Part shown: positions 1 to 19,840 of the stretch, one piece after another
How the letters are laid out: each line of letters starts with the position of its first letter
Position numbering within the stretch: position 1 is the first letter of the stretch
DNA from: Marinobacter sp. MDS2
Lineage (GTDB): Bacteria; Pseudomonadota; Gammaproteobacteria; Pseudomonadales; Oleiphilaceae
Reading direction: 5' to 3'
DNA: 64,000 nt
Assembly (NCBI RefSeq): GCF_030718085.1
Contig: NZ_JAVAJF010000001.1
Coordinates: 248,001-312,000, forward strand
Program-made: the position numbers and the translations under genes
The notes under the pieces: generated by a model
What the model was told of the DNA's origin: nothing
Databases searched by the model: none
Seen by the model: only the letters and a program-made list of their open reading frames with translations

Positions 1-922
1 GAACCTTCCGGGCGCTCACCTGGGCCGCTCCGAAATTAAACATTTGCACCCTCATCGCAATACGTTGCTCCAGCGACGGATTACTTAAATCGGATGCCAC
101 CACCCGACAAGCAGATACGGAGCCATTGGGCTCGATCGTCAGTTCCAGAGTGACTTTACCCTCGAGCGTCGGATCTTTCCTGAGCTCCCGTTTGTAAAGC
201 GAATACAGAACGCTCTTTTGCGCATCAAATACCTGACGAATGTTACTCATGGCCCGTTGCTTAGCCTGTTTGCGCGCCGGTTTTTCCGCGGTTGCCGCAA
301 CCACCTCTTCCGGCGCCTTAATATCGGCGACCTGGTGGCCTGCAACCGCCACCTCCCGAGCCGGCCCTTCACGGGTTTCTATTCCGCCGCTACCGGCCAG
401 TACGTCAGCGCTCGAGGGCACCTCTGACAAACCGGTAGCTTCGGCGCCCGACACATTCGCGGTCAGCTTGCGGCTGTGTTTCGGCTCGGTTTTAGTCAAA
501 GCCTGCAGCCGGTTTTTCATGGCAAACAGGCCGGATTTTGATGCGGTCTCTCGAGCCTGCTCCTTGGTTTGAACAGGTTGCCCGGCTACCTTTGGCGGCA
601 GTTTAGGTTGCCGAGTTTCAGAGACCGACTTCGGCTTGACCACATCGTTCGCTATTTCTGGCGTAGGCTCAGGTTCTTTTACCGGCTCAGGCTGTTTTGG
701 TTGTACCGGCGGTGAAGAAGCAACCAGTTTGGCAAGCCGCGGCGGTATCCGCTCGGCTTCAGCGCGATTCATTTCCGGAACATCCAGATGCGGAATCAGT
801 GCAGCCGGCACCAGAAACAAACCCAACACGATGACCAAGATAACCCTGAAGCGAATGCTTTCTGCGCCATCACGAGTCCATGGCAGACGGCTATCAACGT
901 TTCTTGCGACACGATCAGCCAT
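1..922 (-). CDS. TonB-like protein with AgmX/PglI-type C-terminus (3' end beyond window)
   Basis: The frame is open from an ATG at 922 to the left edge, so the last residues are missing. The product starts with a short basic cytoplasmic stretch, has one membrane helix at about residues 25-43, then a long Pro/Glu/Lys-rich periplasmic linker. It ends in a compact domain (from about residue 250) containing KDPTLEGKVTLELTI, NGSVSACRVVASDL and RVQMFNFG, the pattern of AgmX/PglI C-terminal domains, which are TonB-like. The start overlaps the preceding ExbD gene by 8 bases, so the two are translationally coupled. Inference: it transmits proton-driven movement from the ExbB/ExbD complex across the periplasm, as GltG/GltJ (AgmX) do in Myxococcus. 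A plain TonB paralogue is the main alternative. Confidence 0.85.
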   Translation of the reverse strand, partial: MADRVARNVDSRLPWTRDGAESIRFRVILVIVLGLFLVPAALIPHLDVPEMNRAEAERIPPRLAKLVASSPPVQPKQPEPVKEPEPTPEIANDVVKPKSVSETRQPKLPPKVAGQPVQTKEQARETASKSGLFAMKNRLQALTKTEPKHSRKLTANVSGAEATGLSEVPSSADVLAGSGGIETREGPAREVAVAGHQVADIKAPEEVVAATAEKPARKQAKQRAMSNIRQVFDAQKSVLYSLYKRELRKDPTLEGKVTLELTIEPNGSVSACRVVASDLSNPSLEQRIAMRVQMFNFGAAQVSARKV

Positions 923-1403
923 TGCTCACCTCCGCCTCTGCGGCGAGCCGAACCTGGCGAAACTGCTCATCCACGCAGGTTTGCATAATCCGGCGCAACA
1001 ATCGGTAATCGGTATCTTTGGCCGCCATGATGGTGATTTCGAGACCTTGTTCAGGCACGTCATCCCAACGGCTGCGGCGGTAAGCCAACTCTTCGGACAA
1101 ACCGGCTATTCGTGTATCAGTGGATTCAATGCCATCGAGCGTCGCCACCTCGCGGCCCTGCACGAGTATCGATTGGCCGCTGATCTGAACTGTCAGGTTT
1201 TCGACCGCTTCCTGTTTCGCCGTGGACGTAGGCAAAGCAACATCGGCATTGTTCTGCATCACTTTGACATCGGAAGAATTCACCATCAGGAAGAACACCA
1301 GAATGGTAAATATATCCATCAAAGACACCAGGTTCAGGCCACCTGCCTTGTGCATCCGGCTGTAGTGCCGTTTCCGCATCCGGGCTCTGCGTGAAGTCTT
1401 CAT
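915..1403 (-). CDS. ExbD/TolR-type biopolymer transport protein, second copy
   Basis: 162 residues. A basic N-terminus is followed by one membrane helix (about 22-43) containing LVSLMDIFTILVFF. Asp30 sits where ExbD, TolR and MotB carry the proton-binding aspartate. The rest is a periplasmic domain ending DTDYRLLRRIMQTCVDEQFRQV, typical of the family. It overlaps the upstream ExbD copy by 4 bases and the downstream TonB-like gene by 8. Because the proton-binding residue is intact, this is probably the proton-conducting partner of the ExbB-like protein encoded at 1973-2620. The substrate or load is unknown, and nothing ties it to iron uptake. Confidence 0.9.
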   Translation of the reverse strand: MKTSRRARMRKRHYSRMHKAGGLNLVSLMDIFTILVFFLMVNSSDVKVMQNNADVALPTSTAKQEAVENLTVQISGQSILVQGREVATLDGIESTDTRIAGLSEELAYRRSRWDDVPEQGLEITIMAAKDTDYRLLRRIMQTCVDEQFRQVRLAAEAEVSNG

Positions 1404-1930
1404 ACGCCCTCTCCCTCTGCGGCTTCAGGGCTTTGCGCCAACACGCGACTTTCAGCGGCATCCATCAATGCAACATCCGGGAATAACTCAGCCTCCACAA
1501 CACTGGTTGCCACAACTGCGGGGTACGAACGCACGGTATCCATCACCGACACCAACGTTTGATAATCAACGTTAGGCCCCACTTCCAGAATCACATCGGT
1601 TTTATCTGGAACGTGCCGTTTGATTTGCTGCAGAACTGTCCGCAGGCCCTCGTAATCCTGCGCCTCTCCCTTGGCGGGCAATACCGCGATAAGGCCGCGC
1701 TCGCTGTCGGCGATCTCAAGGCCGTTGGGGATGACTGTCACCACCAACCGCAAGTCTTCCGCTGCGGGAGCTTCTCCGGCATCCATGCCGGGAAAATTGA
1801 GCTCAATCATGCGAACCTGGCTGAACACCATACCCAAAAGCAACACGGGCACCAGCACGATCATCAAGTTCATAAAGGCCGTGATGTCCAGCTCCGCTTC
1901 GGCACTTAGCCGGCGGTGTCGACGTCTCAT
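1400..1930 (-). CDS. ExbD/TolR-type protein with Asn at the proton-binding position
   Basis: 176 residues with one N-terminal membrane helix (about 15-37) and a periplasmic domain. The helix reads LDITAFMNLMIVLVPVLL. Aligned with ExbD (xVTPFIDVMLVLL), the conserved aspartate is Asn21, although Asp15 lies at the start of the helix. The periplasmic part contains DVILEVGPNVDYQTLVSVMDTVR, a clear ExbD signature. The gene lies 42 bases after the ExbB-like gene and overlaps the second ExbD copy by 4 bases. Known: a pair of ExbD/TolR-type proteins with one ExbB/TolQ-type protein is the layout of AglR-AglQ-AglS in Myxococcus. Inference: this copy may be structural rather than proton-conducting. Confidence 0.9.
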   Translation of the reverse strand: MRRRHRRLSAEAELDITAFMNLMIVLVPVLLLGMVFSQVRMIELNFPGMDAGEAPAAEDLRLVVTVIPNGLEIADSERGLIAVLPAKGEAQDYEGLRTVLQQIKRHVPDKTDVILEVGPNVDYQTLVSVMDTVRSYPAVVATSVVEAELFPDVALMDAAESRVLAQSPEAAEGEGV

Positions 1931-1972
1931 ATCACCCTACTCCTGTTCAAACGGGTTTGAGAATGTGAAGCG

Positions 1973-2620
1973 TCACGCCGCAGCGTTGCGAGCTTCTGGC
2001 TCAGACACAATGTTCAGGAGTTTGACGCCTGCCATTTCGAAACTATCGACGATTTCATTGGTACGGGTTTGAAGCAACGCGTGGAACAGCAACAGCGGTA
2101 TGGCAGAAATCAAGCCAAACGCGGTGGTGTTCATCGCAACGGAAATACTTTCGGAAAGGAGGCTCGCTTTTTGAGCCGGATCGGCTGCGGCGACCGCGGT
2201 AAACGCTGCGATCAGCCCGATGATGGTGCCAAGAAGACCGAGCAAGGTGGCCACGTTCGCCAGAGTCGCCAGGTACTGGGTTCGTTTTTCCAGCCTCGGA
2301 AGCACCTCCATCAATCCTTCTTCCATCGCGTATTCAATGTCTTCACGACGGCTGTTATTCAGCAGGCGGGCAATGCCCGCACCCAGAACAGACGCAATCG
2401 CGCTGTCTGAACTGCTTGCAGCCTTCATCGCCCGGGAATAATCCCGTTTTTGCAACGCCGGCAATATGCCACGTTCAAAGGCCAAGCGGTTTCGGCGGCG
2501 AACCGAACCAAGGTAGACAAATCGTTCCAGGGTGATCGCCAATCCAATCGCCAATACGACCGCAATCGGGTACATGAAAGGACCGCCGTCCTGGAAGAAT
2601 CGGATGAGGGTGTCAAGCAT
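1973..2620 (-). CDS. MotA/TolQ/ExbB family proton channel protein
   Basis: 215 residues. Membrane helices lie near 15-35, 113-140 and 155-185. A cytoplasmic stretch between the first two is rich in Arg and Glu. The second helix contains LATLANVATLLGLLGTIIGL and the third MNTTAFGLISAIPLLLF, both classic for the MotA/TolQ/ExbB family. It lies 28 bases after the small secreted-protein gene and 42 before the first ExbD gene. It is expected to form an inner-membrane pentamer around the two ExbD-like proteins and use the proton gradient. Which machine it powers is not given by this protein alone; the TPR and AgmX-like neighbours point to an Agl-Glt-like machine rather than TonB-ExbBD iron uptake or Tol-Pal. 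Confidence 0.92.
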   Translation of the reverse strand: MLDTLIRFFQDGGPFMYPIAVVLAIGLAITLERFVYLGSVRRRNRLAFERGILPALQKRDYSRAMKAASSSDSAIASVLGAGIARLLNNSRREDIEYAMEEGLMEVLPRLEKRTQYLATLANVATLLGLLGTIIGLIAAFTAVAAADPAQKASLLSESISVAMNTTAFGLISAIPLLLFHALLQTRTNEIVDSFEMAGVKLLNIVSEPEARNAAA

Positions 2621-2648
2621 GATGTTGTTCTCCGTTGTTACTGCTGAG

Positions 2649-2999
2649 TCACGGTTTATCCTGTGCTGGGAGGCCGTTCATTGGCTCCAGCACCAGCGGG
2701 TTCAGGGTTTCCCGAAACAGTCGGTGATTTTCAACGGCTGTTGCGGTAACCGGTTGGGTTAATTCGGGTAACTGTTCGTTCAGTTCAGCCCTTGGTCTTC
2801 TGGGCAGGCTGGGGCTTTGCCAGGGCAAAATGTAAAGTATGCGCGGATCATCCTCGCCGGCGCTTGCGGATATACCCGCCACTTCCAATACCGGCTTCTG
2901 GCTTGGCTTTACAGGCTCTTCTGAATGGGCGCTCACGGGCGAAACAACAACCAAAAGAAGGGTGAGCAGGCAGCCCGTCAGTGCAACAAGATGTCTCAT
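2649..2999 (-). CDS. small secreted protein of unknown function
   Basis: 116 residues, beginning with a clear signal peptide (hydrophobic core LTGCLLTLLLVVVSPVSA, cleavage likely after residue 24). The mature part is short, rich in Pro and Glu, and has no domain I recognise. The start overlaps the stop of the TPR lipoprotein gene by 4 bases, so it is a member of the operon and probably a periplasmic accessory protein. The signal peptide core contains a Cys (residue 10), but it is not in a lipobox context. Function unknown. Confidence 0.75.
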   Translation of the reverse strand: MRHLVALTGCLLTLLLVVVSPVSAHSEEPVKPSQKPVLEVAGISASAGEDDPRILYILPWQSPSLPRRPRAELNEQLPELTQPVTATAVENHRLFRETLNPLVLEPMNGLPAQDKP

Positions 3000-3496
3000 T
3001 GAAGCCTCCGTTCAAGGTCGGTAATCCAGCCAGTGACGGTTTTATCTTCCGCGCCCGATAACTGCTGATAACGTTTATAGTGAACCAACGCTTTCTCAAG
3101 CTGCAGGAGGTATAACTCGGAAATCACCGCCAGGTTGTAGTACAGTTCTGCGGTTTCTGGTGAGGCTTCTACCCCCTGTTCCAAAAGCTTCGCTGCGGCG
3201 GAAAAGCGGTTTTGATCTTTGAGCACAAGGGCCAGGTTGTTAACCGTTATCGCGTCTGCGGGGTTGAGCTCTACTGCGCTCTGCCAGGACTGGATAGCGG
3301 TATCAATGTCGCCCCGTTCGTAGGCCCGCTTGCCCTCCAGCGCCAGCGCACTTGCCTGCTCGGGTGAATACAGGGACTTGGGCTTAGCCGTATCCGCGCC
3401 GGGTTCGGTTTTTGTAACTGCACACCCGGACACGACAGTTGCCGCCAACAGCAGCAGGCCAAGTGCTGTTTGGCGCGTGTAGTCAAACACCGTCAT
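2996..3496 (-). CDS. TPR lipoprotein (GltE-like)
   Basis: 166 residues. The lipoprotein signal ends in VVSGC (Cys25), so the mature protein is probably anchored in the outer membrane. Residues 45-150 hold about three TPR repeats (ALEGKRAYERGDIDTAIQSW, LNPADAITVNNLALVLKDQ, ASPETAELYYNLAVISEL). It overlaps the large TPR gene upstream by 14 bases and the small secreted-protein gene downstream by 4. Known: GltE of the Myxococcus machine is a TPR lipoprotein next to the large TPR protein GltD. The equivalence here is inferred from domain type and operon position. A PilF-like pilotin is less likely because no pilus genes are near. Confidence 0.82.
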   Translation of the reverse strand: MTVFDYTRQTALGLLLLAATVVSGCAVTKTEPGADTAKPKSLYSPEQASALALEGKRAYERGDIDTAIQSWQSAVELNPADAITVNNLALVLKDQNRFSAAAKLLEQGVEASPETAELYYNLAVISELYLLQLEKALVHYKRYQQLSGAEDKTVTGWITDLERRLQ

Positions 3497-6314
3497 TCTC
3501 CTTTTTCGTCCAGGTCATCCAACGCAGGTTCCGGCTGTAACGCCCCGGGTGCATGGCAGCCAGCACGTCCAGGCTTTGGCGGATCCATTCGTCGTAACCG
3601 CGTGAGCGAATCATTTGATGGTTTCGGGTGTGCAGCTCCATCGCCTTTTCTTCAAGCGGATACGCTTCCTCTTCCAGGAGCATCTGGTACTGCAAACTTT
3701 CAAGTTCGTTGAGTTCGGCCGGCACCTCAGAGGTCATTAAATCCGCGGCCAACACACGATAAAGCTCTGCTTGCCTGAACAGCACCTCTGTAACCACGGC
3801 GTCACCGGCAAATGCCTCAGCTTCTAGCAGGTAGGTCTGTGCTCTCTCCAACGCAGCTTGTTTGCTAACCAACGTTTTTTCCAAAGGGTGCTGTAAAGCA
3901 ATAGCCACAAACTCATCCGCAGCACGAGCCCCAAGCTTTAACGCGGCATCAGCCGCCCACGCCAGGGTTTCATCCGAATGCCATTGGCTGCGCGATTCAG
4001 CGGTAACCAATGTGTTTAGAACCTCGTAATCGGTTGCGCCAGACTGGATCAGGCGCTGTCGCATCGTTTGTTGCTGCACATGCTCATGAGCTGTCGCGGG
4101 CGCTGGTGCAATGGAAAGCCACTCCCGATAAAGTGTATTACGGGCTTCGATGTGGTTGGTTTCGTGGTAGATTTCGGCTGCCCGCAAGCGCTGAGGCCAG
4201 GGATCGGACATTCCAGACGCCCTGCCAAGAAGCTCGTTCGCCGCCTTTAAGGGTTGGCCGGATTGACGATAGGCGTACACCAGTTTTTCACTGACCTGAT
4301 GCGCTAACCGATGGTTTGCATAATCAGATCTGAATCGATTCAGTTGATTAATAGCCGCGATCCATTCCGAAGCCTTTAACAAGGTGTTCGCAGCATCAAA
4401 ACGGGCGTTAACGGCGAGTTCCGAATCAGGTGCCACATTCACCACCCGCTGGAAATGCGCAACGGCCAATGCAGAGTTACCCGCAGATGCTGCTTGCTCG
4501 CCCTGCTTGTATATCGACACGGCCAACTGCGCTCGGATGTCGCTTCGCTGGTGCTCCGTAACGGCCAACTGGCTCGAACTTTCAGCAAGCGAAAGTGCCT
4601 GGCGCCACGCTCGTTCAGCCAAGCCAAACTCACCTTTATGCTGCTGCACGCGGGCGATTACGAGCCATGCGGCATATTGTTGCTCGGTGTTTGGCGCCTC
4701 CCCCTCCAATGTCTTCTTTGCATAACTCAATGCTGTTTCATAATCACCACGAGCATACCAACGGTTCGCCAAGTCTGCGCGCAACGCCGCCACACGTTCA
4801 TCCGCTCCGAAGGTTTGAGAATACCTCTGCTCTTCCAAACTTAACGCCTGCAAAGCTTCATGATGCTCAGTGGAGTGGCGCCCCTCTTCTAGCGTTACAA
4901 AGGCTTTTCTAAGCATGGTCATGGCTGCCCAACCCGCTTCGTCAGACCGTTCGTAGCCAGCACCGTATGCGGCCTTCCGGAAATTCGACAAGGCTTGCAA
5001 ATCCTGCCCTGCCAGCAGCCTGGCATCACCAGCCAGATGCATTAGCTCACCTTTTTCGCCGGAACGGGGGGCCAACATTTCATAGTATTCCGCTGCTTTG
5101 GCCCAGGAACGCTTAGCGTCTTCCCCCTTCCCGACGGATTGATCGGCTGAACCTGAGGCGTAATAAAAATCCCCCAACGATCGGCCATAAGTCAGCCAAC
5201 GTTGCTGATGGTGAGCAGGCAGCTCCTGAAAATAATCTTCTGGAAGATACTGAGCAACGAACTCCGCTTTAGCTTCCCGGACTTGGGCAGGTGCTCCGGC
5301 CATTGCCCGAAAATCGACATTCTGCGCCAGGAAATCAGGGCCGGCACCATGCCCCGGAAACGCGCCCACAAAGCCGTTATTTACCGCTACGGCACGGCCA
5401 TAACGGCCTTCAACAGCGTGTAGATCTGCTAATCGATCGTACAGAAGGTAGAACCAAGGTGATGGGGACCGCCCGGCCAGCCAGCGTTCCAGAGTTTGGT
5501 TATCATCCAACCGGGAAGCCATCAGCGCCAGCACGCGGAAGCTGTCTTCCACCATATCCAGATTGGAATTAGCAGGCTTTCGAATCTGTTCAGCACCGGG
5601 CAGCTGTCGGTCCAGCAGTTCCATAAAGGTAACCGCCGCCCGCTCCCAGCCTGACATTCCCTGTTTAAACTGACTCCACCCCTTCATGTAACGAGCTTTT
5701 GTGGCAAGTATGGAATCAGGCTCTGCCGAGATCAGCGCTTGATACCCCTTTTCAGCTTCCTGATACCGACCGGCGGAGAACTCAGCTTCAGCAATGCGGA
5801 AACGCGCCTCCGGGACCAACTCTGATGACGGGTACAGCCCAACCAGTTGCCGCAACCGCTGGATAGATTCCGGGTGCTGCCCCGTCAATGCATGAGCTTT
5901 CGCCATTTGATACAACAACTCGTCCAATCGGCCAGAGAAGGAGCCCCGCGACAGAATGCTTTCGTAACTGCCCAACACGTCTTCGTAGATCTCTGTTTCT
6001 TTCTGCTCCGGGAAGCCAATATCCTGACCCGAACGGTCGCGAATATTATTCAGACGATTCAGCGCGTCGATTCGCACCTCTGGCTCGTCCGAGTCTTCAA
6101 ACAGTTTCTGGTATCGACGCGCCACTTCAGCAGGAGAAATTGCTGGCAACGGGCGGGTTTCGAATTTCAAAAAAACGGGCCGCATGTCGCGCAGGGTTTC
6201 GCCATCCTTACCCAGTTCAACCCGAAAAGATTCTTGCGCCGACACATTGCTTTGCCCTAGCGCTACCATGACCAACAACAGCAGTAGTCGCCTGTAACCG
6301 AAGTGCATCGTCAT
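3483..6314 (-). CDS. large periplasmic TPR protein (GltD/AgmU-like)
   Basis: 943 residues with an N-terminal signal peptide (RRLLLLLVMVALGQSNVSA, cleavage near residue 26). Nearly all of the rest is helical repeat: TPR units are visible at about 130-215 (YQMAKAHALTGQHPESIQRL, ARFRIAEAEFSAGRYQEAEK), 505-600 and 625-705. This is the layout of a long periplasmic scaffold. The ATG overlaps the stop of the upstream gene by 4 bases. I used the first ATG; a second lies two codons downstream. Inference: structural counterpart of GltD/AgmU. Repeat proteins are easily over-assigned, so the context carries most of the weight. Confidence 0.8.
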   Translation of the reverse strand: MTMHFGYRRLLLLLVMVALGQSNVSAQESFRVELGKDGETLRDMRPVFLKFETRPLPAISPAEVARRYQKLFEDSDEPEVRIDALNRLNNIRDRSGQDIGFPEQKETEIYEDVLGSYESILSRGSFSGRLDELLYQMAKAHALTGQHPESIQRLRQLVGLYPSSELVPEARFRIAEAEFSAGRYQEAEKGYQALISAEPDSILATKARYMKGWSQFKQGMSGWERAAVTFMELLDRQLPGAEQIRKPANSNLDMVEDSFRVLALMASRLDDNQTLERWLAGRSPSPWFYLLYDRLADLHAVEGRYGRAVAVNNGFVGAFPGHGAGPDFLAQNVDFRAMAGAPAQVREAKAEFVAQYLPEDYFQELPAHHQQRWLTYGRSLGDFYYASGSADQSVGKGEDAKRSWAKAAEYYEMLAPRSGEKGELMHLAGDARLLAGQDLQALSNFRKAAYGAGYERSDEAGWAAMTMLRKAFVTLEEGRHSTEHHEALQALSLEEQRYSQTFGADERVAALRADLANRWYARGDYETALSYAKKTLEGEAPNTEQQYAAWLVIARVQQHKGEFGLAERAWRQALSLAESSSQLAVTEHQRSDIRAQLAVSIYKQGEQAASAGNSALAVAHFQRVVNVAPDSELAVNARFDAANTLLKASEWIAAINQLNRFRSDYANHRLAHQVSEKLVYAYRQSGQPLKAANELLGRASGMSDPWPQRLRAAEIYHETNHIEARNTLYREWLSIAPAPATAHEHVQQQTMRQRLIQSGATDYEVLNTLVTAESRSQWHSDETLAWAADAALKLGARAADEFVAIALQHPLEKTLVSKQAALERAQTYLLEAEAFAGDAVVTEVLFRQAELYRVLAADLMTSEVPAELNELESLQYQMLLEEEAYPLEEKAMELHTRNHQMIRSRGYDEWIRQSLDVLAAMHPGRYSRNLRWMTWTKKENDGV

Positions 6315-8020
6315 TGGGCCTCCTCCCCTAGCGTTTCTAGAGCCAGGTATTCATAGAGGTGCGCAATTTGCTGCTCGGTTTTATCCAGAGCATGCCCCAT
6401 CAACCGGTATTGTTGATCAACAAAGTCCAGTGCCAGCATATCCAACGCTCGTGCGGCGCGGGCTCGCCCCGCATTGACTTGGGTTTGTAATCCATCGATT
6501 TGCTGTTTTAACCGCTGCGAATCAGAAAGCAGTTTCTTTATCGACGTGGCAGAAGCGCCGGCATCCACCAATTGGGTTAACGCGACGATGAACACAGACA
6601 GATCATGAGCATTGCGGTTCAACTGGGCCGTCATCTCGTCATAACGTGCCACGTTCCTGACCGCATTCTGCGCATTTGCCTGCTCAAGGAAGGTCAGCAA
6701 ATACGCCATCCGCGGCTGAGTTAACGTCCGGCTATCAGCCAGAAACCATTGCGGCCCGGTATTTCGGGCATCTTCAACCAGCGCCTTGTAGGCGCCGTGT
6801 TGCCCAATCTGTTCAGCCAGCGCACTCAATGTGACTCGTTCGCCCTGATAAGCTGCGTTGGCCGCAAGCCAGGATTCACCGGCCTGCCCGGGATACCCCG
6901 CCATATCGAAGCCCCGCCCCATTCCTATCCAGGCATCTGTCACTCCGGGAAAGGCCATCGGGAATTTCTTCGCGCGGTGCCAGCTCTGCATAGCGCCACG
7001 GTGATTCCCTTTGTTCGCCAGTGCCAGACCGTGGAGATACAGCGCCTGAGGCGCGTAGTAACTATCCAGCCGCACTTTTTCGAGTAGATTAATGGCTTTG
7101 TCGTAGTCGTCGCTCTTGAGGGCAAGGTATCCTGCGCGAAGATGCAACTGATTAAGGAGGTTGGTACCGCGGGTGTCGTTGTTATCTTTGGCAGCCATCG
7201 CCATTGCGACTCGCAACGATACAAGCGCCCTGGTGAAGTTCAAGTCGTCTCGGGCAAAGTCATTAGCAAGATTGAGATACCCCAATGCTGCCCAATAGCC
7301 CTCGTCCATTTTTGCGAGATAGCGTCCGGCTGCATCAGTCCGGCCTTTGATCCGTTCCTGCTCAGCCAATTCAAACATGTTCCGTTCACGGCGTTCACGA
7401 TGAACGCGTTCGGCGTTGCCTTGCGGCCCGGAATTGTCGGATACGCCGGATGCATTCGATGAAACAGGATCTGCTTCTCGTTCTGAGAAAAGCGCGCCAG
7501 GCTCGAACTCGGGTGCCTTGGCACTCAGTGCTATGTGTAATTTTTTAATCACCGAGCGCTTAACAAATGAATGCAGAAATTCACGGCGCACGAATCGATT
7601 ATTATCGGCACGAGCATTCACCACGGTTTTGAGTTGATGAGGCCCGCTGGACAGGTTTCCTTGGTATAGCGGCAGTGTTTGCCCCTTGGCCAAGCCATTG
7701 CGATCAGACTCGGTGTAGCGGTGTGATGTGACAAGGTGGTCGTCGAGATAGAGCTCCAGAGAATCAACAACCAGAGTTCTTGGCGTTACCACGACAACAC
7801 TCAACTCCACACGGGTATCCGTATGCGGCAGCAACTCGTCCTCAACGGCACGCACGCTATGGGTATGACTGGCGACCATCTCTGTGAGCTGCGTCATCCG
7901 AGTATCGGGAGATACTGCGTGCACACTGTTTACCATGCATACCGCTAGCAATCCGGATATCCAACGCCCCAACATCCTTGGAGCAATCCGGCACTTTTGT
8001 GATTTTTGTTTGCCGAACAT
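6311..8020 (-). CDS. secreted TPR protein, first gene of the Glt-like operon (GltC-like?)
   Basis: I chose the ATG at 8020, 23 codons into the longest frame (which opens at 8089). It is preceded by AGGA at the right distance and it places a signal peptide (cleavage after VNSVHA, near residue 36) at the N-terminus. The product is then 569 residues. After a beta-rich N-terminal part (to about 180), residues 215-430 look like TPR-type repeats (EGYWAALGYLNLANDFARDD, LKSDDYDKAINLLEKVRL, LHGLALANKGNHRGAMQSW). The end is coiled-coil-like (LKQQIDGLQTQVNAGRAR). No gene precedes it closely on this strand, so the operon promoter probably lies in 8021-8240. Calling it GltC-like is tentative. Confidence 0.75.
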   Translation of the reverse strand: MFGKQKSQKCRIAPRMLGRWISGLLAVCMVNSVHAVSPDTRMTQLTEMVASHTHSVRAVEDELLPHTDTRVELSVVVVTPRTLVVDSLELYLDDHLVTSHRYTESDRNGLAKGQTLPLYQGNLSSGPHQLKTVVNARADNNRFVRREFLHSFVKRSVIKKLHIALSAKAPEFEPGALFSEREADPVSSNASGVSDNSGPQGNAERVHRERRERNMFELAEQERIKGRTDAAGRYLAKMDEGYWAALGYLNLANDFARDDLNFTRALVSLRVAMAMAAKDNNDTRGTNLLNQLHLRAGYLALKSDDYDKAINLLEKVRLDSYYAPQALYLHGLALANKGNHRGAMQSWHRAKKFPMAFPGVTDAWIGMGRGFDMAGYPGQAGESWLAANAAYQGERVTLSALAEQIGQHGAYKALVEDARNTGPQWFLADSRTLTQPRMAYLLTFLEQANAQNAVRNVARYDEMTAQLNRNAHDLSVFIVALTQLVDAGASATSIKKLLSDSQRLKQQIDGLQTQVNAGRARAARALDMLALDFVDQQYRLMGHALDKTEQQIAHLYEYLALETLGEEAQ

Positions 8021-8378: not shown

Positions 8379-9557
8379 TTATTTGGTCAGCTGTTTCATG
8401 GCCGATTCAAGACCTTCAATGGTTAGCGGGAACATGTGATCGTTTACCAACTGCCGGGTAATGCCCAACGATCCACCGGTGCCCCAATAACTCTCCGGTA
8501 ACGGATTCAGCCACACCACTTTGTGGAAATGGTCGGTCACACGCTGCATCCACGTTGCGCCGGCTTCTTCGTTCCAGTGCTCGATAGAACCGCCGGGGTG
8601 CGTGACTTCATAGGGCGCCATGGTGGCATCGCCTACGAAAATCACTTTATAGTCCGGCGTGTATTTGTGGAGAATATCCCAGGTGCTGGTGGTTTCGTTC
8701 ATGCGACGAATATTGTTCTTCCACACACTTTCGTAAATAAAGTTGTGAAAGTAAAAATACTCCATGTGTTTGAACTCAAGTCTGGCCGCCGAGAACAATT
8801 CTTCACACACCCGGATGTGCGGGTCCATAGAACCGCCTACATCAAAGAAGATCAGCACCTTCACGGCGTTATGCCGCTCCGGCACCATTTTAAGATCCAG
8901 GTAGCCGGCGTTTCGGGCTGTTGAGCGAATAGTGTCATCAAGATCCAGCTGATCGGCCGCGCCCTGGCGAGCAAACTTGCGCAACCTGCGCAGGGCCACC
9001 TTGATATTGCGAAGCCCCAGGGTGATGCTGTCGTCCAGATCCTTGTAGTCCCGTTTCTCCCAGACTTTCACTGCCCTGCCGTGCCGGCCATTTTTCTGAC
9101 CAATACGAAAGCCCTCGGGGTTATAGCCATTGGCGCCAAAAGGCGATGTGCCCCCGGTACCAACCCACTTGTTGCCACCCGCATGGCGTTCTTTCTGCTC
9201 TTCCATGCGTTTCTTGAAGGTTTCGATCAGCTCTTCGAGGCCACCAAGGGACTCGATCTTGGCCTTTTCTTCTTCGCTCAGGTGCTTTTCGAACTCGGCC
9301 CGCAACCACTCGTCCGGAATCAGCGCCTCCAACAAATCGTCGAGGTTTTCGATACCGTCAAAATAGGCTTTGAAGGCCCGATCAAACTTGTCGAAATGCC
9401 GCTCATCCTTAACCAGACAGACACGGGCGAGATAGTAGAACTCTTCCATATCGGCAAACGCCAGACGCTGCTGGATTGCTTCCAGCAAGTCCAGAAATTC
9501 CCGCAGACTGGCCGGTACTTTGGCTCGGCGGATTTCGAGAAAAAAATCAATCAACAT
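8379..9557 (-). CDS. VWA domain protein of the CoxE-like family
   Basis: 392 residues, cytoplasmic, no signal peptide. The N-terminal half is helical and acidic. The C-terminal half is a von Willebrand A fold with LIFFDVGGSMDPH near residue 240: the metal site is DxGxS instead of the usual DxSxS. A Gly- and Trp-containing linker (about 125-170) precedes it. It follows the MoxR ATPase gene after 22 bases. Known: CoxE/MoxR pairs act as chaperone-like modules that insert metals or remodel proteins. The target here is not evident. Expected to be cotranscribed with 9580-10422. Confidence 0.88.
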   Translation of the reverse strand: MLIDFFLEIRRAKVPASLREFLDLLEAIQQRLAFADMEEFYYLARVCLVKDERHFDKFDRAFKAYFDGIENLDDLLEALIPDEWLRAEFEKHLSEEEKAKIESLGGLEELIETFKKRMEEQKERHAGGNKWVGTGGTSPFGANGYNPEGFRIGQKNGRHGRAVKVWEKRDYKDLDDSITLGLRNIKVALRRLRKFARQGAADQLDLDDTIRSTARNAGYLDLKMVPERHNAVKVLIFFDVGGSMDPHIRVCEELFSAARLEFKHMEYFYFHNFIYESVWKNNIRRMNETTSTWDILHKYTPDYKVIFVGDATMAPYEVTHPGGSIEHWNEEAGATWMQRVTDHFHKVVWLNPLPESYWGTGGSLGITRQLVNDHMFPLTIEGLESAMKQLTK

Positions 9558-9579
9558 AAAACGATGCTCTTGCCAGCAA

Positions 9580-10422
9580 TCAGTTGCGGCGACGCGCCAT
9601 AAACGCCAGCCTCTGCAGCAGGTGTACGTCTTGCTCGTTCTTCACCAGCGCACCGTATAGCGGTGGCAACGCAGAACTGTTGTCTTTTTCCAGCAGTGCT
9701 TTGGCGGACAGCTCATCGGCCATCAGCAGCTTCAGCCAGTCGATCAGTTCAGACGTGGACGGCTTTTTCTTCAGACCCGGCACTTTCCGAACGTCGAAAA
9801 AGACTTCCAACGCATCGCGCACGACTTGCTGCTGCAGCCCAGGAAAATGCACATCCACGATGTCCTTCATGGTGTCATGATCCGGGAAACTGATGTAGTG
9901 GAAGAAACAACGGCGCAAGAACGCATCAGGCAGCTCTTTTTCGTTGTTACTGGTGATTACGATGATCGGGCGCTTCTTGGCCTTAACGAATTCCTGGGTT
10001 TCGTATACAAAGAACTCCATGCGGTCGAGTTCTAGCAACAGGTCGTTCGGGAACTCAATGTCGGCCTTGTCGATTTCATCGATCAGCAGAATCACTTGCT
10101 CGTCAGACTCGAAGGCTTCCCACAACTTACCTTTAACGATGTAGTTGCGAATGTCTTTTACCTTCTCGTCGCCGAGCTGGGAATCACGCAGACGAGATAC
10201 TGCATCGTACTCGTACAGACCCTGCTGGGCTTTGGTGGTCGATTTGATGTGCCAGGGAATGAGCTTCATTCCCAGAGAGGCCGCCATTTCTTCCGCCAAC
10301 AAGGTTTTGCCGGTGCCGGGCTCGCCTTTGATCAGCAACGGGCGCTGGAGCGAAATGGCTGCGTTAACGGCCATTTGCAGGTCATCGGTGGCTACGTATT
10401 TTTCGGTACCGGTAAACTTCAT
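9580..10422 (-). CDS. MoxR family AAA+ ATPase
   Basis: 280 residues. Walker A GEPGTGKT at 33-40, Walker B VILLIDEID near 112-120, sensor IVITSNNEKELPDAFLRRC near 153-171, and an arginine-finger region after it. This is the MoxR (AAA_5-like) layout at normal length. Known: MoxR ATPases work with VWA-domain partners, and two such genes flank this one (8379-9557 and 10453-12321). The start ATG is preceded by a weak Shine-Dalgarno. Role inferred: ATP-driven remodelling or activation of an unknown client together with the CoxE-like partner. Confidence 0.93.
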   Translation of the reverse strand: MKFTGTEKYVATDDLQMAVNAAISLQRPLLIKGEPGTGKTLLAEEMAASLGMKLIPWHIKSTTKAQQGLYEYDAVSRLRDSQLGDEKVKDIRNYIVKGKLWEAFESDEQVILLIDEIDKADIEFPNDLLLELDRMEFFVYETQEFVKAKKRPIIVITSNNEKELPDAFLRRCFFHYISFPDHDTMKDIVDVHFPGLQQQVVRDALEVFFDVRKVPGLKKKPSTSELIDWLKLLMADELSAKALLEKDNSSALPPLYGALVKNEQDVHLLQRLAFMARRRN

Positions 10423-10452
10423 GTGTCTAATTCCTGTTAGTTACTTTAAAAC

Positions 10453-12321
<1,869 letters not shown>

Positions 12322-19727: not shown

Positions 19728-19840
19728 GGGGGTGACCCCACCAGCAATTCTCCGGCACACAATTCCACCGCTTCGGCTGCTCCCTTCCGGGCCTGACCGG
19801 GTTCACGGTTTCATGTTGCGGAGGCACCAATGGGGCCACC
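19728..19840 (-). ncRNA. ffs: signal recognition particle RNA (4.5S RNA)
   Basis: Read on the minus strand, the centre contains GGTCAGGCCCGGAAGGGAGC followed by AGCCG, which is the conserved domain IV (GGTCAGG, GGAA tetraloop, AGCAGCC) of bacterial small SRP RNA. The ends pair as GGTGGCCCCA with TGGGGTCACC, giving about 113 nt, like E. coli 4.5S RNA. Ends are estimated from the terminal helix. The RNA binds Ffh and targets membrane proteins. It lies close to dnaX, as in Pseudomonas relatives. Confidence 0.95.

Follow-up and report, generated by a model that had tools for sequence, protein, structure and literature searches.

An Agl-Glt-type operon of Marinobacter, and relatives that suggest one motor powering several exchangeable force-transmitting arms

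The operon and its setting

The window considered here, a stretch of 64,000 nucleotides from Marinobacter sp. MDS2 (contig NZ_JAVAJF010000001.1, positions 248,001 to 312,000), holds at its left end (1..8020) an operon of eight genes, all on the minus strand in the list of open reading frames (ORFs), that is a further member of a published type of machine, the Agl-Glt core complex. We consider it probable that this operon encodes a proton-driven trans-envelope force transducer, and that its motor is an exchangeable unit serving more than one transducer; the relatives of the operon suggest that one motor can power several exchangeable force-transmitting arms. The operon as such is already published, since Luciano et al. 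(2011) describe in gammaproteobacteria a single region that holds seven “Group B” genes together with an “additional gene” (PMC3169522), and Wartel et al. (2013) a stand-alone core in many gammaproteobacteria (PMC3858216). The sequence-only reading had noted that a reduced Glt core exists outside the myxobacteria, rightly so: Luciano et al. name two Marinobacter, in which the core complex is duplicated. In the portions of the two papers at hand the gammaproteobacterial core is assigned no function, and a literature search of open-licence papers found no functional study of it.

In reading order, the operon opens with the GltC-position protein (6311..8020; 569 amino acids (aa), ATG at 8020, weak TPR matches), followed by the large TPR protein in the GltD position (3483..6314; 943 aa, YfiO/TPR matches) and the TPR protein in the GltE position (2996..3496; 166 aa, TPR_11 at 7e-15), whose N-terminus, with LVSGC, looks lipoprotein-like by eye. 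The GltC-position gene is a single ORF here; in its place many relatives have a protein of about 185 aa and a TPR protein. Next comes a small secreted protein (2649..2999; 116 aa) with a signal-peptide-like start, which matched no Pfam or NCBIfam family and probably corresponds to the “additional gene” in the published complex. The motor genes are AglR, an ExbB/TolQ-type ring protein (1973..2620; 215 aa, MotA_ExbB 103 bits), ExbDa (1400..1930; 176 aa, Pfam ExbD 43 bits), in which Asn replaces the transmembrane Asp, and ExbDb (915..1403; 162 aa, Pfam ExbD 60 bits), which keeps the Asp in SLMDIF. The last gene encodes a TonB-like protein in the GltG position with an AgmX/PglI C-terminal domain (1..922; 316 aa, NF033768); as had been noticed, it is cut by the left edge, by 29 bases, the full ORF lying at 15973-16923 of L009 (316 aa). 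The next gene is on the opposite strand, so the operon ends here; beyond the edge, a divergent gene looks to be of MaoC type and another of FadD type (names by eye). Eight minus-strand genes of these kinds, in this order, were thus recovered from the ORF list, Pfam and NCBIfam just as first read, and the description of the operon as overlapping was nearly right: five of the seven junctions overlap (GltC/GltD by 4 base pairs (bp), GltD/GltE by 14, GltE/small protein by 4, ExbDa/ExbDb by 4 and ExbDb/TonB by 8), and two have gaps (small protein/AglR 28 bp, AglR/ExbDa 42 bp). Content and order match the “core complex” as presented in the portions of PMC3169522 at hand, in agreement with the first reading of its composition. 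The putative Agl-Glt assignment rests on this gene order, on the published phylogeny, and on the AgmX/PglI tail, which scored 60.8 bits against a cut-off of 40 for the in-window part of the TonB-like protein.

Motor loss in the Marinobacteraceae

A contig scan with the GltC alignment yielded 75 loci of the window's type (cluster 1) in the Marinobacteraceae (74 Marinobacter, one Tamilnaduibacter); the genome-wide searches covered 70 of the 75, leaving out the short-contig loci L049, L051, L062, L066 and L076. Twelve of the 75 loci keep GltC, GltD, GltE, the small protein and TonB and are devoid of AglR, ExbDa and ExbDb; three further loci, without motor matches only through contig ends, stand outside the 12. 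In all 12 motorless genomes the best AglR is of a second type (AglR2, 66-67% identity, versus 80-98% for AglR1 elsewhere). Of the 58 genomes taken to keep motor 1, 22 also have AglR2; a third AglR type (56-61% identity) is present in 16 of 70. The 12 motorless loci form one clade with support 1.0 in a FastTree phylogeny built on five flanking proteins, with 72 tips and 1745 columns. Excision of the motor was clean, since the stop of the small gene and the start of TonB overlap in 11 of 11 motorless loci read (L081 not among them). M. similis A3d10 (L041) was set aside as a further loss of motor 1: its AglR and ExbDa frames are broken, probably through sequencing error given its long branch beside L044, and it was counted as a motor keeper.

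The reciprocal state occurs in two of these 12 genomes, G006 and G012. Fifteen of 17 second-cluster regions gave GltC-, GltD-, GltE-, AglR-, ExbD- and TonB-type matches; in G006 and G012 only AglR2, ExbDa2 and ExbDb2 are left of the second cluster, with open frames (ExbDb2 of G012 is short, 155 aa). A GltD2 query found its own kind in G001, G007 and G009 of the clade, and in G006 and G012 only the cluster-1 GltD at about 30%, with no GltD2. In G001 an MGMT-like gene (by eye) precedes the second cluster by about 9 kilobases (kb), and in G006 and G012 it adjoins AglR2; a single deletion thus explains the state of these two. As they are sisters (support 1.0, FastTree), the loss of transducer 2 was one event.

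Between G006 and G012, AglR2 has a ratio of nonsynonymous to synonymous substitution rates (dN/dS) of 0.02 and each of the two ExbDs one of 0.12; in three motorless pairs the ratio is 0.08-0.12 for GltD, 0.08-0.23 for GltE and 0.12-0.22 for TonB, with 0.15 for GltC in the sole computable pair. Changes specific to the motorless clade are concentrated in the tail and helix of TonB (12 of 39 columns, versus 22 of 258 elsewhere; Fisher 3e-4). At one site before the helix, Phe is found in 91% of 55 motor-bearing TonB1 sequences and Leu in 75% of the 12 motorless ones, Leu also being present in 31 of 31 TonB2; this count leaves out five sequences with a failed anchor, as well as the TonB of the window, which was cut. 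Convergence of TonB was considered as proof of motor swapping, rejected as such, and kept as weak support.

Distribution among gammaproteobacteria

An even sample of 370 gammaproteobacterial genomes was searched for AglR (E <= 1e-40) and, with a query from cluster 2, for GltD (E <= 1e-20), two GltD candidates being scored per genome, so that GltD copy numbers are floors. AglR was found in 87 genomes (67 of 273 by genus) and GltD in 90, including all 87 AglR-positive ones. Three genomes have GltD and no AglR at threshold: in G281 an AglR-like match sits where a contig ends, G129 is truncated by the end of its contig, and the region of G136 was not fetched. The arrangement GltD-GltE-AglR-ExbDa-ExbDb-TonB, all on a single strand, is seen again in 38 of 40 loci drawn from 33 families of gammaproteobacteria, and the operon is therefore more than a chance arrangement; the exceptions are L218 and L245 (the latter cut by a contig end), where GltD and GltE were not found nearby. 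A match to the N-terminal type of GltC precedes GltD in 32 of these 40 class loci. A match to the small protein turned up in 30 of them, and in all 30 it stands between GltE and AglR.

Second transducer arms and a barrel module

GltD matches outnumber those of AglR in 19 of the 90 genomes. Twenty second-GltD regions were collected from 17 of these 19 (G136 and G230 left out) and from two genomes, G122 and G243, that have one AglR and one GltD on separate contigs; 15 of the 20 were readable, with at least 4.7 kb after GltD, and five (L252, L259, L260, L264, L265) were cut by contig ends. None of the 15 readable regions, from 7 families, holds an Agl-type motor or a TonB. ExbB-type matches of 26-27% on the opposite strand were seen in L246 and L247, that of L246 within genes reading as a Tol operon. 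Upstream, barrel (OMPb) and DUF3570 matches occur in 9 of the 15 readable regions; OMPb-type matches occur in 8 of the 40 class loci.

Clusters 2 and 3 of Marinobacter are flanked by two outer-membrane proteins (L121 121-1490, L137 16896-18397), the second of which matches OMP_myx_plus (TIGR04565) with 151 and 163 bits at a cut-off of 60, the first falling below it. This family was searched in 50 of the 70 searched genomes: 30 score 110 bits or more, and no match exceeds 68 bits in the 17 that lack clusters 2 and 3. This leaves G006 and G012, which hold only the motor, and G023, which has a fragment where a contig ends. We infer from size, order and family name that the barrel pair beside GltC is a candidate counterpart of GltA/GltB; Myxococcus gltB and gltA (275 and 256 aa) are listed as adjoining gltC in the available text of PMC3169522. 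Such a pair beside GltC in some gammaproteobacterial arms would imply wider sharing of an outer-membrane component otherwise regarded as peculiar to myxobacteria and Bdellovibrio.

Two further components accompany these arms. One is a large protein, lipoprotein-like, that carries PD40 repeats and two CxxCH motifs (L137 4406-7333). All 15 cluster-3 loci have it downstream of TonB, and 8 of 20 second-GltD loci have it upstream of the barrel pair, while the 75 cluster-1 loci have none; it is possibly the outer-membrane end of the cluster-3 and second-GltD arms. The barrel module also holds a DUF3570 barrel, a DUF4266-like CxC protein and a thioredoxin-like gene (L121 2165-3400; L134 17597-17950). 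Genes of these three types are tied to flavin-based redox clusters in the available portions of PMC8238504, and they suggest a redox link for some arms. Flavinylation of the DUF3570 barrel was rejected, the motif [S/T]GA[S/T] being absent from the one protein checked (L121).

The Asp/Asn pair of ExbD proteins

The FMNLM of ExbDa aligns with the FIDVM of a solved ExbD (7ajq_F), and its Asn is nearly invariant. In the Marinobacteraceae it is present in 59 of 60 cluster-1 sequences (the remaining frame is broken), 34 of 34 of cluster 2 and 15 of 15 of cluster 3, with the Asp of ExbDb in 60 of 60, 34 of 34 and 15 of 15. Among class loci, a short and a larger set, which share genomes, gave Asn in ExbDa of 29/29 and 39/40 loci and Asp in ExbDb of 29/29 and 40/40, respectively. 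A review gives, in the text at hand, a conserved aspartate for both AglQ and AglS and treats homo- versus heterodimer as an open question (PMC9389320); the fixed Asp/Asn pair bears on this question. At the depth of titles and abstract openings, our literature search found no description of such a pair.

Proposed mechanism and its alternatives

In the mechanism that we propose, the AglR ring would hold one ExbDa and one ExbDb, with the proton-binding Asp on ExbDb only; solved relatives of such rings have five subunits. Proton flow would turn or flex the ExbDa/ExbDb axle, and the TonB-like protein, docking through its N-terminal helix and crossing the peptidoglycan, would act on a TPR scaffold (GltC, GltD, GltE and the small protein) at the outer membrane. 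Both the motor exchange and the mixed axle are what we infer from the comparisons above. By analogy, the motor may be an exchangeable power unit for several transducers, as AglRQS is for Glt and Nfs in Myxococcus, where one Agl motor drives both according to the available text of PMC3858216. Gliding is the less likely output; most probably the machine moves or places some component of the surface or envelope, in the manner of Nfs. A fuller version, in which a shared motor with an obligate Asp/Asn axle drives interchangeable arms, some ending in a GltA/GltB-like barrel pair and a redox-type module, and in which one Marinobacter clade swapped motors by reciprocal gene loss, we regard as evenly balanced.

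Several results weigh against these proposals. The TPR proteins largely match generic families, an outcome that the sequence-only reading had named as adverse: the GltE-position protein scored 17.1 bits against the GltE model (cut-off 225), and the GltC-position protein matched no Glt model at E <= 0.01, though NCBIfam includes one for GltC. Its AlphaFold2 model (23 sequences; mean predicted local distance difference test score 79) has a beta-sandwich at about residues 70-182, TPR helices and long C-terminal helices, and resembles ordinary TPR chains in the PDB (Foldseek). On the tree, motor 1 was lost once and transducer 2 was lost once, and hence neither the 12 motorless loci nor the two genomes without transducer 2 are independent cases; for the same reason the association of AglR2 with motor-1 loss (Fisher 5e-5) was dropped as support. 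Moreover, G006 is a metagenome-assembled genome and G012 was assembled from Ion Torrent data, the TonB changes of the motorless clade mostly do not lead towards TonB2, and the small protein has a dN/dS of 0.68 in one of two motorless pairs (0.03 in the other). AglR matches outnumber those of GltD in G190, G231 and G383 (with GltD limited to two candidates per genome), and L236, a single class locus with Asp in both ExbDs, is a natural symmetric variant. Finally, the motorless second clusters are without TonB too, so their coupling to a motor is putative.

This last point also speaks for the alternative that no motor is shared, in which the motorless arms need no motor or use an unrelated one, and in G006 and G012 motor 2 serves something else nearby. 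Other ExbB-type genes do exist, for instance beside comEC (33-35% identity), and a C39-peptidase gene follows motor 2 in both genomes. Against this, TonB1 has been kept in the motorless loci and looks constrained, its evident use being motor coupling, motor 2 has stayed intact in G006 and G012 though its transducer is gone, and no AglR-positive genome is without GltD; we therefore hold the alternative to be unlikely.

More improbable still is an auxiliary TonB-ExbB-ExbD uptake system or a Tol-Pal paralogue with the TPR proteins as accessories. The motor does belong to the same superfamily, TolQ and ExbB are its nearest solved chains, and the TonB-like protein has a partial TonB_C match (20.4 bits, cut-off 24.6). 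The equivalog cut-offs, however, are all missed: AglR scores 64.5 of 221 bits for TolQ and 39.3 of 206.2 for ExbB, and the ExbD proteins 32.1 of 127.3 for TolR and 19.5 of 152.95 for the ExbD equivalog. The genome has its own TolQ elsewhere (306 bits), besides, at other loci, a flagellar motor protein, the ExbB-type gene beside comEC and a further ExbB/TolR-type pair; no siderophore, receptor, tolB or pal gene was read by eye in 16 kb beyond the left edge; and two dissimilar ExbDs and the TPR scaffold travel together with the motor. The grouping with Ton or Tol-Pal that would have told against the first reading was thus not found, and its Agl-Glt interpretation is partly supported overall. A true gliding machine in Marinobacter is very improbable, despite homology to the Myxococcus gliding core (PMC3169522, in the portions at hand) and the barrel pair adjoining GltC in other Marinobacter clusters, as the best OMP_myx_plus match of the window genome is unlinked and at 52 bits below the cut-off, in a search outside which MglA, GltF and GltI-K lay.

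Neighbouring genes

Upstream of the operon, the window carries a MoxR ATPase gene and two VWA genes (8379-12321). MoxR occurs in 72 and a CoxE-type VWA gene in 73 of the 75 Marinobacteraceae loci. We rejected them as parts of the machine: unrelated flanking genes are nearly as constant in the family, and none stands beside the core in the 40 loci of other families (one MoxR match of 30% lies elsewhere). A bacterial small signal recognition particle RNA (19736-19832, minus strand) is the only Rfam match above gathering score in the window.

Comparison with known systems

Like the gammaproteobacterial core complex, as far as the portions of PMC3169522 at hand describe it, the Marinobacter operon has an AglRQS-type motor, the GltC, GltD, GltE and GltG positions and one extra gene in a single cluster. 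That account gives one region per core outside the Deltaproteobacteria, duplicated copies aside; unlike it, the relatives examined here show motor loss and second transducer clusters without motor or TonB. With AglRQS-Glt/Nfs of Myxococcus xanthus, in the available text of PMC3169522 and PMC3858216, the operon shares the motor, the TonB-like coupler and the TPR transducer; unlike there, no GltA, GltB, GltF or GltH-K adjoins it. The TonB-like gene putatively corresponds to GltG by position and tail, although the protein stays below the full-length GltG equivalog (41.6 of 650 bits) and is without the FHA domain that the text at hand lists for Myxococcus GltG. ExbDa has Asn where Asp is reported for both AglQ and AglS, a comparison drawn from the available text of the review and not from Myxococcus sequences. 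With TolQR-TolA and ExbBD-TonB, finally, the operon has the motor superfamily and the coupler architecture in common, and it differs from both in its two dissimilar ExbDs, its AgmX/PglI tail, its TPR scaffold and its scores below their equivalog cut-offs.

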